Shown here piece by piece: positions 3,530 to 51,402 of a DNA stretch of 64,000 nt. How positions within the stretch are numbered: position 1 is the stretch's first letter; every line of letters begins with the position of its first letter. The DNA is taken from positions 62,001-126,000 of the forward strand of contig NZ_SNVW01000002.1 in NCBI RefSeq assembly GCF_004361695.1, read 5' to 3'. The notes beneath the pieces are model-generated. The model made no database searches. It saw nothing but the letters and a program-made list of their open reading frames with translations, and was not told where the DNA came from. This DNA is from Curtobacterium flaccumfaciens. Lineage in GTDB: Bacteria > Actinomycetota > Actinomycetes > Actinomycetales > Microbacteriaceae. The position numbers and the translations under genes were made by a program.

Positions 3530-4909
3530 GTGACGAACACCTGGCCGATCTCGCGCGGCACCGTACCCGAGCGCGAGGCGTTCGCCTTCGGTGCCACGAT
3601 GCTGTTCGTGCTCTTCGCCGGAGACGCCGTCCCCAACTCGCTCACCTGGGTGGGCGCCGGGATCCTCTGGGCACTCGTCGCGGTGTGGGGCGTCACCGTC
3701 CTGGTCCGTGCTCGGCCGCCGATCACGCGCACACCGCGGTCGCTCTGGTTCTTCCTGGCCTGGTGCCTGGTGTCCGTCCTCTGGTCGCACTGGCCGCAGG
3801 CGACGATCCCGAGCATCGTGGTGCAGGTGATCTGCGCCGCGATGGCGTTCACGGTCGCGTCGACACTGACGTGGCGGCGCATCCTCGACGCGCTCAGCCT
3901 CGCGTTCCGCTGGGTCCTCATGCTGTCGCTCGTCTTCGAGGCCGTGGTCGCCGTGGTGGTCCGGCACCCGATCGTGCCGGTGTGGACCGACTACGGCGAC
4001 CGGCACATCCCGGACGCCTTCTACTTCTCGCGCGCCGAGCTCTTCACGGGCGGTCGCATCCAGGGCCTCCCGGGCAACGCGAACCTGCTGGCCATGGTGG
4101 CCCTGCTCGCCGCGATCGCCGTGGCCGTGCAGTTCGCCGAGGGGCGGATCAGCCGGAACCGGACGATCGGCTGGCTCGTCGTGGCCGGGCTCGTCCTCGC
4201 CCTCACCCGGTCGTCGACCGTCCTCGTCGCGACCCTGGTCGTCGCGGTCGCGCTGGTCGTGGCGCTCTGGATCCGTCGGGTCCCGACCGAGCGGCGGACC
4301 CCGCGGTACCTGGTCGTCGTGGTCGGTGCGGTCGTCGCGGCCGTCGTGGCCTTCCTCGCCCGCGGCGCCGTGTCCGAGCTCCTCGGGAAGGGTGCCGACG
4401 CCACCGGCCGCGGCGTCATCTGGGAGCGCGTGACCGGGCTCATCGACCAGCACCCCGTCGTCGGCTGGGGCTGGATCGGCTACTGGTGGCCGTCCATCCC
4501 GACCCTGGCGGACCTCGCGCACCGGAAGGGCGTGACCTACCTGCAGGCGCACGACGCCTACCTCGACGTGTGGATGCAGACCGGGATCATCGGACTCCTG
4601 CTGTTCGCGCTCTACGTCGTCACCACCCTGAACCGCTCGTGGTCGTCGGCGACCCGGATCGGCTACGACGCGTCCCAGTCGCCGCGGCCGTTCGACCCGG
4701 TGTCGCTCCTGCCGTTGCTGGTGGTCGTCGCGCTGCTCGTGCAGTCCGTCGCCGAGTCACGCCTGCTCTACCAGGGGAACTGGGTGCTGTTCGCGCTCAT
4801 CGCGATCAAGTCGCGGATCGTCCTGGTCGGCGACGAGCCGCTCTCGACCGGGGACGGACCGCGCACGCCGCCCGCACGCCGCGAGTTCCGCCAGCCATCC
4901 CGGCGCTGA
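3530..4909 (+). CDS. O-antigen ligase/polymerase (Wzy_C) family membrane protein, copy 1
   Basis: A 459-aa protein with about ten hydrophobic segments and a large extracytoplasmic loop holding HPVVGWGWIGYW from about residue 308, the hallmark of the O-antigen ligase/polymerase fold. Family members join lipid-carried glycans to an acceptor or to each other on the outer face of the membrane. The opposing gene at 4995-6380 and this gene form a convergent pair that recurs at 6472-9340 with paralogous members. The gene end runs into a 27-bp tandem repeat. Whether it acts as ligase or polymerase cannot be told from sequence. Confidence 0.88.
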   Translation: MTNTWPISRGTVPEREAFAFGATMLFVLFAGDAVPNSLTWVGAGILWALVAVWGVTVLVRARPPITRTPRSLWFFLAWCLVSVLWSHWPQATIPSIVVQVICAAMAFTVASTLTWRRILDALSLAFRWVLMLSLVFEAVVAVVVRHPIVPVWTDYGDRHIPDAFYFSRAELFTGGRIQGLPGNANLLAMVALLAAIAVAVQFAEGRISRNRTIGWLVVAGLVLALTRSSTVLVATLVVAVALVVALWIRRVPTERRTPRYLVVVVGAVVAAVVAFLARGAVSELLGKGADATGRGVIWERVTGLIDQHPVVGWGWIGYWWPSIPTLADLAHRKGVTYLQAHDAYLDVWMQTGIIGLLLFALYVVTTLNRSWSSATRIGYDASQSPRPFDPVSLLPLLVVVALLVQSVAESRLLYQGNWVLFALIAIKSRIVLVGDEPLSTGDGPRTPPARREFRQPSRR

Positions 4910-45660: not shown

Positions 45661-47256
45661 GTGACTTCAGGAGACACCCCCGATCTCTCGACGACGGCCG
45701 GTCGGCTCGCCGACCTCCGCGAGCGGTACCACGAAGCAGTGACCGCCGCGGGCGAGGCCGCGATCGCCAAGCAGCACGCCAAGGGCAAGGGCACGGCGCG
45801 CGAACGGATCGAGCAGCTGCTCGACGAGAACTCCTTCGTGGAGTTCGACGAGTTCGTCCGCCACCGCACCACCGCGTTCGGCATGGACGCCAAGCGGCCG
45901 TACGGCGACGCGGTCGTCACCGGCGTCGGCACCATCCACGGCCGGAACGTCGCCGTGTACGCGCAGGACTTCACCGTCTTCGGTGGCTCCCTCGGCGAGG
46001 TCGCCGGCGAGAAGATCATCAAGGTGATGCAGCACGCGATCAAGACCGGCGTGCCGATCATCGGCATCCTCGACTCGGGCGGCGCCCGCATCCAGGAAGG
46101 CGTCGTCGCCCTCGGCAAGTACGGCGAGATCTTCCGCCTCAACACGCAGGCGTCCGGGGTCATCCCGCAGCTCTCCATCGTGATGGGTCCGGCGGCCGGC
46201 GGTGCCGTGTACTCCCCCGCCCTCACCGACTTCGTGATCATGGTCGACAAGACCAGTCACATGTTCGTCACCGGCCCCGACGTCATCAAGACTGTCACCG
46301 GCGAGGACGTCGGCTTCGAGGAGCTCGGTGGCGCACAGACGCACAACGCCGTCTCCGGCGTCGCGCACTACCTCGCCGAGGACGAGTCCGACGCCCTCGA
46401 CTACGCCCGGTCGCTCATCGGCTTCCTGCCGGACAACAACCTGTCCGACCCGCCCGCGTACGACGTCGCCCCGGAGCTCGAGACCACCGACGCCGACCAC
46501 GAGCTCGACGTCGTCATCCCGGACTCGGCCAACCAGCCGTACGACGTCACGACGATCATCGAGCACCTCGTCGACGACGGCGAGTTCCTCGAGGTCCAGC
46601 CGCTCTTCGCGCCGAACATCCTGATCGGCTTCGGCCGGGTCGAGGGCCGCACGGTCGGCATCATCGCGAACCAGCCGCAGGCCATGGCCGGCACGCTCAA
46701 CATCGACGCCGGCGAGAAGGCAGCCCGCTTCGTGCGGTTCTGCGACGCGTTCGGCATCCCGATCCTCACCCTCGTGGACGTCCCCGGCTACCTGCCCGGC
46801 ACCGACCAGGAGTGGACCGGGGTCATCCGCCGCGGCGCGAAGCTCCTCTACGCGTACGCCGAGGCCACCGTGCCGCTCGTCACCGTCATCACGCGCAAGG
46901 CCTACGGCGGCGCGTACATCGTGATGGGCTCGAAGCAGCTCGGCGCCGACATCAACCTCGCGTGGCCGACCGCCGAGATCGCCGTGATGGGTGGTCAGGG
47001 CGCCGTCAACATCCTGTACCGCGCCGAGATCAAGCGTGCCGAGGAATCCGGCGAGGACGTCGCCGCCGTGCGTGCGAAGCTCGCGAACGAGTACACCTAC
47101 AACGTGGCGTCGCCGTACCTGGCGGCCGAGCGCGGTGAGCTCGACGGGATCATCCAGCCGCACGCCACGCGCGTCTCGGTGATCAAGGCGCTCCGTGCCC
47201 TGCGCGGCAAGCGTGCATCGCTGCCGCCGAAGAAGCACGGGAACATCCCGCTGTGA
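45661..47256 (+). CDS. Acyl-CoA carboxylase beta (carboxyltransferase) subunit
   Basis: A 531-aa crotonase-fold enzyme that moves a carboxyl group from biotin to acetyl- or propionyl-CoA. It shows [28 protein letters not shown] and [16 protein letters not shown], the two oxyanion-hole regions. The length and the C-terminal HGNIPL match actinobacterial AccD5/PccB. GTG 45661 is leaderless. An epsilon subunit follows. The alpha subunit lies at 53787. Substrate preference is inferred. Confidence 0.96.
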
Positions 47257-47269
47257 TCGAGGTGCGCTG

Positions 47270-47527
47270 ATGGGCCGCCACGCCGCCGCCGTCCCCGCCG
47301 AGGAACCCGTGTCGGTCGGGGCGGACGTCCGCGTCGTCTCCGGCGACCCGACGCCCGAGGAACTCGCCGCCGTCATCGCCGTCCTGCAGCGGCAGGCGGA
47401 CGAGGCCGCGTCGCTCGGCCGGCCCGAGGTCACGGTGTCGCCGCGGACCGGGTGGGACGTGTCGGCCCGTGGGCTGCGCCGGCCGCTCGAGCACGGCGCG
47501 GGGGCCTGGGCGCGGTCGCTGCGCTGA
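47270..47527 (+). CDS. Acyl-CoA carboxylase epsilon subunit-like small protein
   Basis: An 85-aa protein with VVSGDPTPEELAAVIAVLQ, the conserved core of actinobacterial AccE, and a Trp-containing end (GAGAWARSLR). AccE binds the beta subunit and raises activity. GAGGTG lies 5 nt before ATG 47270, 13 nt after the upstream stop, so the two are in one operon. Confidence 0.85.
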   Translation: MGRHAAAVPAEEPVSVGADVRVVSGDPTPEELAAVIAVLQRQADEAASLGRPEVTVSPRTGWDVSARGLRRPLEHGAGAWARSLR

Positions 47528-47732
47528 GTTCGGCGCGGTCCGCCGAGCGCACGGTCCGTTTTTCGCACGGTCCGTCTTGCGCACGACCGCGCGTCGGCGT
47601 CGCCCGGGGCTTGCGCTCCCCCGCCAGGACGGGCGACCATGTACCCCTGGGTATCGAGTCGTCTGCAGCGTTGCAGGGTGCACTTCCCGGTCGGTCTCCC
47701 CTCAGACGGGGGACATCTGCGGTCGACGGGGT

Positions 47733-47761
47733 CTGAAATCGCACGATTTGTCCCCCATAAT
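47733..47761 (+). promoter_or_regulatory. Sigma70-type promoter for a candidate small RNA
   Basis: CTGAAA (47733-47738), a 17-bp spacer, and CATAAT (47756-47761). This is the best -35/-10 pair seen in the window. Transcription would start near 47768. Confidence 0.6.
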
Positions 47762-47767
47762 GACGAC

Positions 47768-47946
47768 TGACAGACCAGTTGGCGGCAGGCATAGTAGTTG
47801 TTGTTCGGTGTCCTTCAACGAAGAACATCGCAGGCGGTGGCCGACTAGGGTACGAAGCCACCACCAGCTACGAGTCAGGGCGATATTCGGGTTGTCGCTC
47901 AGACTCGGGTCGTGAACGGGCCGGTCGGATTCCGACCGGCCCGTTC
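47768..47946 (+). ncRNA. Candidate ~180-nt structured small RNA
   Basis: Downstream of the promoter lie four consecutive hairpins. HP1: 47799-47807 with 47819-47827, one G-G mismatch. HP2: GGTGGC 47836-47841 with GCCACC 47857-47862. HP3: 47871-47883 with 47895-47907, a 13-position stem with one A-A mismatch and one G-U. HP4: a 15-bp stem, 47914-47928 with 47932-47946, loop ATT, which looks like the terminator. No plus-strand gene follows before the end of the gap, so it is not a leader. I do not recognise the family; 6S RNA and 6C RNA were considered without a decisive match. Confidence 0.55.
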
Positions 47947-48043
47947 CCCGTTTCCGGGCGTGTGCGTTGCCGTGCCGCCGGGTCGGTCGTTGTCGTCGTT
48001 GTCGTCGTCGTCGTCGAAACATGTACACGCGTGTTGCGACCCT

Positions 48044-48143
48044 GCACCAGTCGATCGACGCGTGGTTCGTCGTCTCATGCGCACACAACGAGTGCGTGTG
48101 CATGTTCCGACGCCGCACCAGTCGATCGACGCGTGGTTCGTCG
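48044..48143. repeat. 29-bp direct repeat pair within ~71-bp imperfect units
   Basis: Copies at 48044-48072 and 48115-48143 are identical over 29 bp and include the palindrome GTCGATCGAC and ACGCGT. Flanks also resemble each other (TGTACACGCGTGTT against GTGCGTGTGCATGTT; CATGCGCAC against GATGCGCAC), so the true unit is about 71 bp. Confidence 0.88.
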
Positions 48144-48176
48144 CACGATGCGCACGCACCGACCGGCGCGGCCAAC

Positions 48177-48260
48177 GGCACGGCGACACCAGCGACCACC
48201 GACCGGCACGGCGACCGGCGCCACCGACCGGCACGGCGACACCAGCGACCACCGACCGGC
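48177..48260. repeat. 31-bp direct repeat pair
   Basis: Identical 31-bp copies at 48177-48207 and 48230-48260, separated by 22 bp that also contain GACCGGC motifs. They lie just downstream of the kinase-like gene stop at 48315. Confidence 0.88.
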
Positions 48261-48314
48261 TCGCCAGCGCAGGCGCCAGCGACCGGCAGCCCCGCAGCCC
48301 CGCCGCGCCAGCCG

Positions 48315-49364
48315 CTACGCGGACACGTGCCGCGGGATCTCCAGCCACACGACCACGGAGTCGTCCTCGTCGCCGTCGTCGTCGTCCGCCCCAGCCCCGA
48401 GCGCGGCGGACTCGCTCGCCGCCAGGTCGAGCCGGAGCCCCACGACGGTGACCGCCGAGTCGGACCCCTCGGACACGGTGCGGACGATGACGTTGTCGGC
48501 CTCACGGGCCTGGCGCAGCGCGTCGGCGATCCGGGCGTGCACCCGGCGCAGGTCGTCGATCTCGAGGTCGTCGAGCCCACCGTCGTCGTGGAGCTGGACC
48601 GTGGCGCCGCGGCGACGAAGGCGCATGACTTCCTCGCGGACGTCCTCGGAGAGCAGGGACCGGCCACGGATCTCGTCGCGGATGGCCTGCTCGAGGTGCA
48701 GGCACTCGTCACGCTCGGCGTCGTCGAGGTCGCCCCCGGTGTCGATGATCCGCTGCAGCATCGGCAGCGCCATCCGCGTCGTCTGGCTGAGGCGGAACTG
48801 CCGCTCGAACACGTGGGCGTCCTGCGCCGCCTGCCAGTCCGCCGTCTCCTGCTCGGCACGGACGAAGTCGCGGGTGACCCGGGTCGCCCGGTTCATGGCG
48901 AAGGCGAACCCGGTGGCGATGGCGACCCAGGACACACTGCCGAGCACCCCGAGGGACCCCAGCGCGCCGAGTCCGGCCCACGCGACGGTGTGGACCGCGA
49001 GGAACCCGACGCCGATCCACGCGAACGGCCCGCGCCCGCGGACGACGAGCACCACCATCAGCGTGCCGACGGCGGCGATCCACCACGTGTTGTACGAGGG
49101 GCCGGAGCGGAGCTCGACCACCGGTGACGCGACGACCGGCATGACGACCGCGGTCGCGAGTGCGAAGCACGTCGCCCAGATCGGGAGCGTCCGGCCGGAC
49201 ACGAAGAGCGCGACGCCCGTCGCGGCGGCGTAGAGGACCATGCACGCGACCACGGGGCCGACCTCGAGGACACGCGGCAGCGTGGTGACGGCGAGGAGCA
49301 GGTGGTAGACGGAGAACAGCGCCGCGAGACCGATCGCGACGCCCGCAGGGATGGAGACCTTCAC
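48315..49364 (-). CDS. Histidine-kinase-like membrane protein lacking catalytic motifs
   Basis: A 349-aa protein. Residues 1 to about 155 hold about five hydrophobic segments, and a long helical region follows (FVRAEQETADWQAAQDAHVF, EEVMRLRRRGATVQLHDDGG). Its layout matches the kinase encoded just upstream. The phospho-acceptor His is absent, and the region where an N box is expected reads ALRQAREAD; no DxGxG or G2 loop is visible. The C terminus has a run DDDDGDEDD. GTG 49364 overlaps the kinase stop (GTGA), so the two are coupled. It may be a sensor partner or inhibitor. Confidence 0.75.
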   Translation of the reverse strand: MKVSIPAGVAIGLAALFSVYHLLLAVTTLPRVLEVGPVVACMVLYAAATGVALFVSGRTLPIWATCFALATAVVMPVVASPVVELRSGPSYNTWWIAAVGTLMVVLVVRGRGPFAWIGVGFLAVHTVAWAGLGALGSLGVLGSVSWVAIATGFAFAMNRATRVTRDFVRAEQETADWQAAQDAHVFERQFRLSQTTRMALPMLQRIIDTGGDLDDAERDECLHLEQAIRDEIRGRSLLSEDVREEVMRLRRRGATVQLHDDGGLDDLEIDDLRRVHARIADALRQAREADNVIVRTVSEGSDSAVTVVGLRLDLAASESAALGAGADDDDGDEDDSVVVWLEIPRHVSA

Positions 49365-50683
49365 CGTGCCGCCCCCGATCGGGGTGCCCAGTCGAGCCGG
49401 ACACGGGTGCCCGCGCCGGGAGCGGTGTCGACCTCGGCGTGCCCCTCGACGGCCACCACGCGTTCGACGATCGACCGGCGGACACCGAGGCGTTCGGCCG
49501 GGATCGCGTCGAGCGCGAAGCCGGCGCCGTCGTCACCGATCTCGATGCGGGCTCCGGCACCGTGCTGCTCGACGACGATCCAGCGGTCGACCTCGGCACC
49601 TCCGGCGTGCTGCACGCTGTTGACGGCCGCCTGCAGCGCCGCGGAGGCGAGTGCGTCGGCGACGGTGGCGGGGACGCGGACACTGCCGGCGCGTTCGCCC
49701 TGCACGCGGACCGGGGCGGCCAGTGCGCCCACGGCGTCGGCGATCCGGGCGCGGAGGTCTGCGAGGGACACCGGTGGCGCCCCGGCCGGGTCGTCGGAGG
49801 CGGCTGCCTCGAGGTGGTCGATGGCGTTCCGTGCCATCCGCGCCGCGAGCATCTCCGCGTCACGGGTCTCGGCCCGGGCGGCGGACAACAGCGTGGTGAG
49901 GACGCTGTCGTGCACGATCGCGTCGACCTGGACGCGCTCGACCTCGGTCGCGTGCTCCCGGATCGCGTGCGAGTACCGGCGGACGGCGGTGGCCTGCGCG
50001 GCGTCGACCGCCGTGGCCGCGCGGCGCAGCACGACGGCGATGACGAGCACCGCACCGCTGAGGATCGCCGTGTACACGCCGTCGAGGAGCGCTCGGAGGC
50101 CGGCGTCGCCACCGACGGGGGTGAGCCGGATGACGACGTACACGGTGGGGACGAGCGCGGTGTAGACCGTCGCCCGCCACGGCGCGAAGCCCATCGCGGC
50201 GGCGGTCGAGCCGACCGTGCAGAGCCACCACGGCCAGGGCACCTGGTCCGTCGGGATCGGCTCGCGCACCGTCAGCGGCCACGTCACCAGCGCGACGAGG
50301 AAGAGCAGCGCGCAGAGGATCTGCGCGAGCTGGGCGACCCGACGGATGAACACCGAGGCGCCGACGAACAGGAACGACGCCGCGAGCCCGCACGCCACGA
50401 CCGGACCCCAGACGGGGTCGAGGTACGGCAACTGGTTGAGCACGGCCGGCACCGTGGTGGCGCCGAAGCCGAGCGCCGCGACGGCGAGCAGGATCGCGAA
50501 CGCCCGCTCGACCGACGCCTGCGTGATCGTGGCCCGGACGCTGCGCGACGGGTCCGCACCGAACGGCGCGTCGTCACTCCCCGGGGAGCCGACGCTCGAC
50601 GCGGCGCCCGCCCGGGCGGCCGGACGGGCCGCCCGGGTGGCGCGCGCCGGTCCGGACGTGGGTGCCGCGTCAGCCGCAGCCAT
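49361..50683 (-). CDS. Sensor histidine kinase (NarL-partner type)
   Basis: A 440-aa membrane kinase. An Ala-rich cytosolic lead of about 55 residues precedes five or six hydrophobic segments (about 60-200). The dimerisation/acceptor region has AIVHDSVLTTLL, with the His of the HD pair. The ATPase domain shows ALQAAVNSVQHAG (N box), IEIGDDGAGF (G1) and GAGTRVRLDW (G2). It would phosphorylate the response regulator whose stop is 5 nt upstream of its ATG. The signal is unknown. Confidence 0.88.
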   Translation of the reverse strand: MAAADAAPTSGPARATRAARPAARAGAASSVGSPGSDDAPFGADPSRSVRATITQASVERAFAILLAVAALGFGATTVPAVLNQLPYLDPVWGPVVACGLAASFLFVGASVFIRRVAQLAQILCALLFLVALVTWPLTVREPIPTDQVPWPWWLCTVGSTAAAMGFAPWRATVYTALVPTVYVVIRLTPVGGDAGLRALLDGVYTAILSGAVLVIAVVLRRAATAVDAAQATAVRRYSHAIREHATEVERVQVDAIVHDSVLTTLLSAARAETRDAEMLAARMARNAIDHLEAAASDDPAGAPPVSLADLRARIADAVGALAAPVRVQGERAGSVRVPATVADALASAALQAAVNSVQHAGGAEVDRWIVVEQHGAGARIEIGDDGAGFALDAIPAERLGVRRSIVERVVAVEGHAEVDTAPGAGTRVRLDWAPRSGAAR

Positions 50684-50688
50684 GGTGC

Positions 50689-51402
50689 TCAGCGACCGTC
50701 GCCGTCGGGGTCGATCCCCGAGTCGAGCCCGGGCAGGATGCCGTCCTCGACCGCACGGCGGAGGAGGTCGACCTTCGTCGGAGCCGGACGACCGACCTCG
50801 ACGTACTTCACGCGGATGCGGTCGAGGTACTCGCGCGCCGTCGAGTACCCGATGCCGAGCTGCTGCGCGGCGAGCTTGAGCGGCAGGCCCGAGGCGTAGA
50901 GGTGGAGGATCTCGCGCTCGCGCCGTCCGAGCTGCGCCTTCGCGAAGTCGCGGTCGGCGTCGATCGCACTCGCCCACTCGAGGTTGTTGAGCACGTCGCC
51001 GCGTGCGACCGTCGCGACGGCCGCCATCACGGTCTTCGTCGCCGAGGACTTCGGGATCACACCCGCAGCCCCGGCGGCCAGTGCCTCGCGGACGTTCGCG
51101 ACGCGGTCGGCGATGGAGTGCACCAGGACCGCGGAACCGGTGCCCTGAACACCCTTCACGTTCGCGGTCACGGTGGAGCCGTCGCCGAGCGACAGGTCGA
51201 GGACGACGACGTCGACCTCACGCCCGTCGAGGTGCTCGATGTACTCGGGCACGCTCGCGGCGGTGAGGACCACCTCGAACCCCTCGTTCTGGCACGCTGC
51301 CTGGATCCCGAGTCGCACGGACTCGTGGTCGTCGACGATCGCGACACGGACGGGCTTGATCGCCAGTCCGGTCGTTCCGGTGGTGGTCGTGTCTGTTGCC
51401 AC
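50689..51402 (-). CDS. LuxR/NarL-type response regulator
   Basis: A 237-aa regulator. The receiver has VAIVDDHESVRLGI, the phospho-acceptor Asp in VVVLDLSLGDG and the Lys in VIPKSSA. The LuxR-type helix-turn-helix is QLGRREREILHLYASG to AQQLGIGYSTAREYLDRI. GTG 51402 follows GAGAGG. It is the first gene of a three-gene unit with the kinase and the kinase-like protein. Confidence 0.93.
   Translation of the reverse strand: MATDTTTTGTTGLAIKPVRVAIVDDHESVRLGIQAACQNEGFEVVLTAASVPEYIEHLDGREVDVVVLDLSLGDGSTVTANVKGVQGTGSAVLVHSIADRVANVREALAAGAAGVIPKSSATKTVMAAVATVARGDVLNNLEWASAIDADRDFAKAQLGRREREILHLYASGLPLKLAAQQLGIGYSTAREYLDRIRVKYVEVGRPAPTKVDLLRRAVEDGILPGLDSGIDPDGDGR

Follow-up and report, generated by a model that had tools for sequence, protein, structure and literature searches.

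A four-hairpin RNA element, very probably a regulator, beside two-component system genes in Curtobacterium and other Microbacteriaceae

The GacA-controlled small RNAs of the gammaproteobacteria, RsmX, RsmY, RsmZ and CsrB, are the nearest described counterparts of the RNA discussed here. They share with it a dedicated upstream operator, a NarL/GacA-type regulator as the likely activator, several hairpins displaying a repeated short loop motif, and an intrinsic terminator. Members of the CsrB/RsmZ family are recognized by multiple GGA motifs in their loops, and by the presence in the host of the protein that they titrate, CsrA (or RsmA), a protein not usually associated with Actinobacteria. Within the Actinobacteria, 6C RNA (RF01066) is a small RNA (sRNA) of two hairpins with C-rich loops. 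Ms1 (scr3559), reported in 824 actinobacterial species, is 6S-like in structure, binds core RNA polymerase, and is recognized by that structure together with its synteny with a HAD-hydrolase gene (PMC9130861).

The present RNA, about 150 nt long, is predicted to occupy positions 47802..47955 of the plus strand in a 64,000-nucleotide stretch of the Curtobacterium flaccumfaciens genome (‘the window’). It differs from the Rsm and Csr RNAs in that its loops hold GGGU rather than GGA, many of its hosts lack CsrA, and its gene is directly linked to genes for a two-component system, the partner here being putative. It resembles 6C in having hairpin loops rich in one base, but the base is G instead of C; 6C has no match in this genome, Rfam none at the locus, and we rejected this assignment. 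Like Ms1, it is widespread and recognizable through conserved synteny, but in place of a long 6S-like helix with a HAD-hydrolase gene nearby it has four separate hairpins, and its linkage is to accE and two-component genes.

Structure and conservation of the RNA

On one side of the tract is accE, which ends at 47527; on the other is a gene for a membrane protein, on the minus strand at 48315-49364. Its GC content is 0.575, versus 0.70-0.78 in the surroundings, an AT-richness already remarked upon in the first-pass annotation of the window. Hairpin P1 (47806..47830) is followed by P2 (47833..47865), the loop of which contains ACTAGGGTA at 47844-47852, and by P3 (47871..47907), which has the loop ATTCGGGTT at 47885-47893 and a 13-position stem with one A-A mismatch. 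P4, finally, is a palindrome: a 15-bp stem of the intrinsic-terminator kind (47914-47928 paired with 47932-47946) closed by the loop ATT, with a weak U tract, CCCCGTTTCC, directly 3' of it. All of these elements are on the plus strand. Four successive hairpins, the mismatched third stem and the terminator-like fourth were all claimed in the first-pass annotation, whose statements about the sequence proved exact in position. Folding of 47765-47950, which it recommended, yields -89.8 kcal/mol, compared with -67.3 ± 4.3 for dinucleotide shuffles (z = -5.3), a value reached by none of the shuffles (0/200). For 47801-47955 the corresponding values are -79.2 and -56.5 ± 4.5 (z = -5.0).

With 47725-47950 as the query, 59 of 60 further genomes of the genus proved to contain the tract (74-99% identity; the window's own genome is not counted), and none of 39 genomes of other families did. 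Conservation by column in 60 Curtobacterium copies is high from 47748 to approximately 47950, interrupted by a variable gap at 47774-47787, and lower outside; within the genus, that is, the RNA is better conserved than its flanks. A covariance model built from 59 sequences matches 189 of 300 Microbacteriaceae genomes, representing 55 of 85 genera. Among those named by an exact-pattern scan of public genomes are Curtobacterium, Leifsonia, Herbiconiux, Frondihabitans, Frigoribacterium, Cryobacterium, Salinibacterium, Glaciihabitans and Naasia. In other families of the order, the covariance search returned no convincing match, only background (all E ≥ 0.0026, and mostly terminator-like stems). 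The RNA is ‘lineage-specific’, as first proposed, when the term is taken to mean the family Microbacteriaceae and not the genus alone. One MAG labelled Acidobacteria (L254) also carries the RNA, on the same 22204-base contig as a locus from the family (L141), and is probably a mislabelled bin.

Covariation in related genomes was the second check recommended at the outset, and the hairpins are kept. In an alignment of 56 diverse copies, fitted to the covariance model, 93.5% of the cells at paired positions are paired, versus 74.4% when shuffled and 33-48% in slid registers, and 41 of 44 pairs display changes on both sides. Such changes affect all 10 modelled pairs of P1, 10 of 12 in P3 (97.8% of cells paired) and, as compensatory changes, 12 of 13 in P4; P2 shows compensatory changes too. 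The lower figure for P1, 85% of cells paired, is due to its outermost pair, which does not form in most genera other than Curtobacterium. The compensatory changes persist in gapless, loop-anchored arms of P2 and P3, which are independent of the model fit. G-U cells number 147 and A-C cells 19, and the plus strand is therefore the RNA sense. We take these comparisons to show that the four-hairpin structure is under selection.

A coding sequence was considered and rejected: indel lengths in P1 and P2 are not divisible by three. The first-pass annotation could assign the RNA to no known family, and a search of 4227 Rfam families agrees. Nothing scored at or above its family threshold, sub-threshold matches (miRNA and PtaRNA1) fell on the terminator stem only, and six loci from other genera gave no Rfam match. 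Nor did we find a description of this RNA in the literature on sRNAs of Curtobacterium, Clavibacter, Leifsonia and the Microbacteriaceae. From the comparative evidence, it is almost certain that the locus encodes a real RNA element, and very probable that this is a real, previously undescribed regulator.

Promoter, predicted operator and neighboring genes

The promoter first proposed for this RNA paired CTGAAA at 47733 with CATAAT at 47756, and was thought to yield a transcript of some 180 nt. A second pair, CTGACA at 47767 and CATAGT at 47790 (47767..47795, plus strand; 17-nt spacer), scores equally well, and it is the one that is conserved. Within the genus, CTGAAA drifts, and divergent members have CGAAAT or CTAAAT in place of CATAAT; we rejected this pair as the promoter for lack of conservation across Curtobacterium. 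CTGACA, a spacer of constant length and varied sequence, and GGCATMRT are retained in most copies. Because only this pair is conserved, we infer that transcription starts near 47802, which leaves in place the proposal of an sRNA transcribed independently from a promoter of its own, and reduces the size to about 150 nt; the segment 47733-47800 is, on this reading, promoter and predicted operator. Comparative evidence, including two features of the sequence, the fixed spacing of -35 and -10 and the covarying terminator stem, strongly supports an sRNA that is independent of its neighbors and has a promoter and a terminator to itself.

The predicted operator, TTGTCCCCCATAATGACGACTG (47748..47769, plus strand), is near-invariant in the genus and overlaps the -35, a probable site for an activator; this is the natural reading of TTGTCCCCCATAATGACGACT at the CTGACA-17-CATAGT promoter. 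An inverted copy of the TGTCCCCC half-site, GGGGGACA, is present at 47708..47715 on the minus strand and is well conserved among the 60 Curtobacterium copies; the same inverted arrangement is found at fliA/flgN. In most other genera the operator is TGTCCCCCNAAATGACGACT, often as a direct repeat with a spacing of about 11 bp, the duplicated form being TGTCCCCC-N3-TGTCCCCC-N-AAATGACGACT. The -35 is poor in genera other than Curtobacterium, and the combination of poor -35 and duplicated operator would fit an activator-dependent promoter. The half-sites TGTCCCCC and TGTACCCC resemble the NarL heptamer, TACYYMT, a resemblance that we regard as a lead only.

When 13 genomes were searched for the operator, exactly or with one mismatch, nearly all of the matches were at the RNA itself, and the sRNA locus was the best match of the genome in most of those tested. 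A relaxed form, GTCCCCCNAAATGMCGAC, allowed up to two mismatches, has 42 matches in nine Curtobacterium genomes (2 for the reversed pattern). All nine have it both at the sRNA and between the flagellar genes fliA and flgN; in several of them it is also present at a TetR-type gene and at a pnuC-like gene, the latter divergent from the gene for a small exported protein. The site in the divergent fliA-like/flgN intergenic region (L167 3261-3280, which is C10:130760-130779 of the window's own genome) is conserved in 30 Curtobacterium genomes (L174-L203), and suggests that one activator serves both the sRNA and the flagellar genes. Two further operator-like sites in the own genome, C15:60526 and C6:16610 (L338, L330), are upstream of a pnuC-like transporter gene and a TetR-family regulator; the small exported protein beside the former is, by eye, SipW/TasA-like.

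In the window, the RNA is preceded by accD (45661..47256) and accE (47270..47527), plus-strand genes for the beta and epsilon subunits of acyl-CoA carboxylase (Pfam Carboxyl_trans and ACC_epsilon). It is followed, on the minus strand, by kin1 (48315..49364), a membrane protein resembling a sensor kinase; kin2 (49361..50722), a sensor histidine kinase with a HATPase_c domain (Pfam); and a response regulator of the NarL/LuxR type (50689..51402), with a receiver and a GerE-like HTH. Kin1 is without a match in Pfam and NCBIfam, and may be a degenerate sensor kinase conserved beside the HATPase kinase. Kin2 is weakly similar to MacS, scoring 58 bits where the cut-off is 300. Between the RNA and kin1, at 48029-48162 and 48176-48263, are two 63-nt direct repeats, 84% identical, as well as further short repeats.

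Within the genus, the RNA adjoins accE and the kinase gene in every copy that has flanking sequence. Across about 38 genera, represented by 39 true loci, the gene order is birA-accD-accE-RNA-kin1-kin2-response regulator-trmA, and in most of them kin1 or the regulator is no more than 1 kb from the RNA. ‘Orphan’, the term first applied to the RNA, is thus only partly apt, since its gene almost always adjoins a two-component system. In two loci (L142 and L148) the RNA is inverted yet intact, which argues for a promoter of its own. L127 has lost both kinases; the response regulator is still adjacent to the RNA (4453-4615), in which the P2 and P3 loops are off consensus. In L128 and L153 the RNA has no kin1 nearby. 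In L164 the kinase-kinase-regulator set is duplicated in tandem, and the RNA is a single, diverged copy.

A tally by hand over the 300 family genomes puts RNA and regulator together in 185, with 4 that have only the RNA, 37 that have only the regulator, and 74 that have neither. Part of the association stems from phylogeny, and it is therefore support and not proof. Six of the ‘regulator only’ genomes were examined (G132, G206, G263, G176, G238 and G286), and in all six the RNA is at the expected place, in copies that fell below the stricter whole-genome filter. Control of the RNA by the adjacent two-component system has, in our estimation, about an even chance of being correct. The operator occurs also at the fliA/flgN, pnuC-like and TetR-family genes, and its binding protein could thus be the product of a gene elsewhere.

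Exposed loops and mode of action

The P2 and P3 loops share a 9-nt motif, A-Y-U-M-GGGU-W. The P2 loop is nearly invariant within Curtobacterium, and the P3 loop is found in nearly all of the loci from other genera. One Curtobacterium lineage (L060) carries ATTCGGGTT as its P2 loop too, so that P2 and P3 have the same loop; in a distant genus (L101) the P2 loop shrinks to CGGGTA, which makes GGGU the common core. The linker between P2 and P3 contains a conserved GGGGG outside Curtobacterium. The convergence of two loops on one motif suggests one ligand.

It is likely that the element is a trans-acting sRNA. The explanation that best accommodates the whole, and that we consider somewhat favored, is an independently transcribed trans-acting sRNA that is induced by the two-component system and acts through its exposed loops. 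Transcription would proceed from near 47802 to P4. An activator bound at TGTCCCCC-N-AAATGACGACT, most likely the neighboring NarL-type response regulator, would switch the RNA on, and the RNA would then act in trans via its two GGGU loops, either by binding a protein or by pairing with mRNAs through short seeds. We slightly prefer protein binding because the loops share one motif, and because the genomes tested have no recurring site of extended complementarity; titration of a protein is put forward as a tentative mode of action, with rather less than an even chance.

Pairing, in which the two G-rich loops would serve as short seeds for C-rich sites in mRNAs, is a possible but doubtful alternative. 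Among the unpaired parts of the molecule, the loops are conserved best, and sRNAs with several seed loops are common in Gram-positive bacteria. Against it, no extended loop complement recurs: with one mismatch allowed, the P2 loop has 9 non-self complements in five genomes, a background level (15 for the reversed control). P3-loop complements are in excess in the same number of genomes, which may reflect codon usage, and the search with both loops in five genomes produced no convincing antisense target. In the syntenic genes there is about one complement per locus, the RNA copies themselves, and none recurs beyond these.

Any titrated protein is most unlikely to be CsrA. A repeated loop motif, an adjacent NarL-type regulator and the flagellar link of the operator would all suit a sponge of the CsrB/RsmZ kind, and CsrA is encoded in 92 of the 300 family genomes, this one included (C10:88219-88371). 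But the conserved loops, ACTAGGGTA and ATTCGGGTT, hold GGGU and not the GGA core of CsrA sites, and at least 97 of the 189 RNA-bearing genomes are without CsrA, which makes it an unlikely general partner; we rejected this candidate on loop motif and distribution.

A plus-strand gene might have the RNA as its leader, riboswitch or attenuator, or the accDE operon might have it as its 3' UTR; we think this as improbable as the CsrA sponge, and it is already disfavored. The RNA lies about 275 bp downstream of accE and runs in the same direction, but in this and most other genomes a minus-strand gene comes next, and the missing plus-strand gene downstream was the argument first made against a leader; both a promoter and a terminator are conserved for the RNA itself; and in L142 and L148 it points the other way with respect to accD. 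Slightly less credible again is antisense action on the convergent kinase mRNA at its 3' end. The RNA is convergent with kin1, or keeps the same relation to accD, in 37 of the 39 loci, but overlap would be limited to the 3' UTR of kin1; the RNA persists where it is inverted, where kin1 is not nearby, and where both kinases are lost; and it is the folded structure that is conserved, not linear sequence alone. Least probable of all is a 6S- or Ms1-type RNA that binds RNA polymerase, which the breadth of Ms1 among actinobacteria might commend and which we rejected on the four-hairpin array, the accE and two-component neighbors, and the lack of an Rfam match.

The reading that we prefer, a two-component-induced sRNA acting through its loops, can be extended to a Csr-like module common to the Microbacteriaceae, in which the sRNA would titrate a GGGU-loop-binding protein, and motility, surface and other genes would be coordinated through the shared operator; we consider this extension rather unlikely as it stands. 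To our knowledge, few regulatory RNAs are known in these plant- and soil-associated Actinobacteria, and Hfq and ProQ are absent from most members of the phylum. A covarying, family-wide sRNA with an operator and a linked two-component system would offer a handle on sRNA regulation in the absence of known chaperones, and the RNA may be a route to a new RNA-binding protein.
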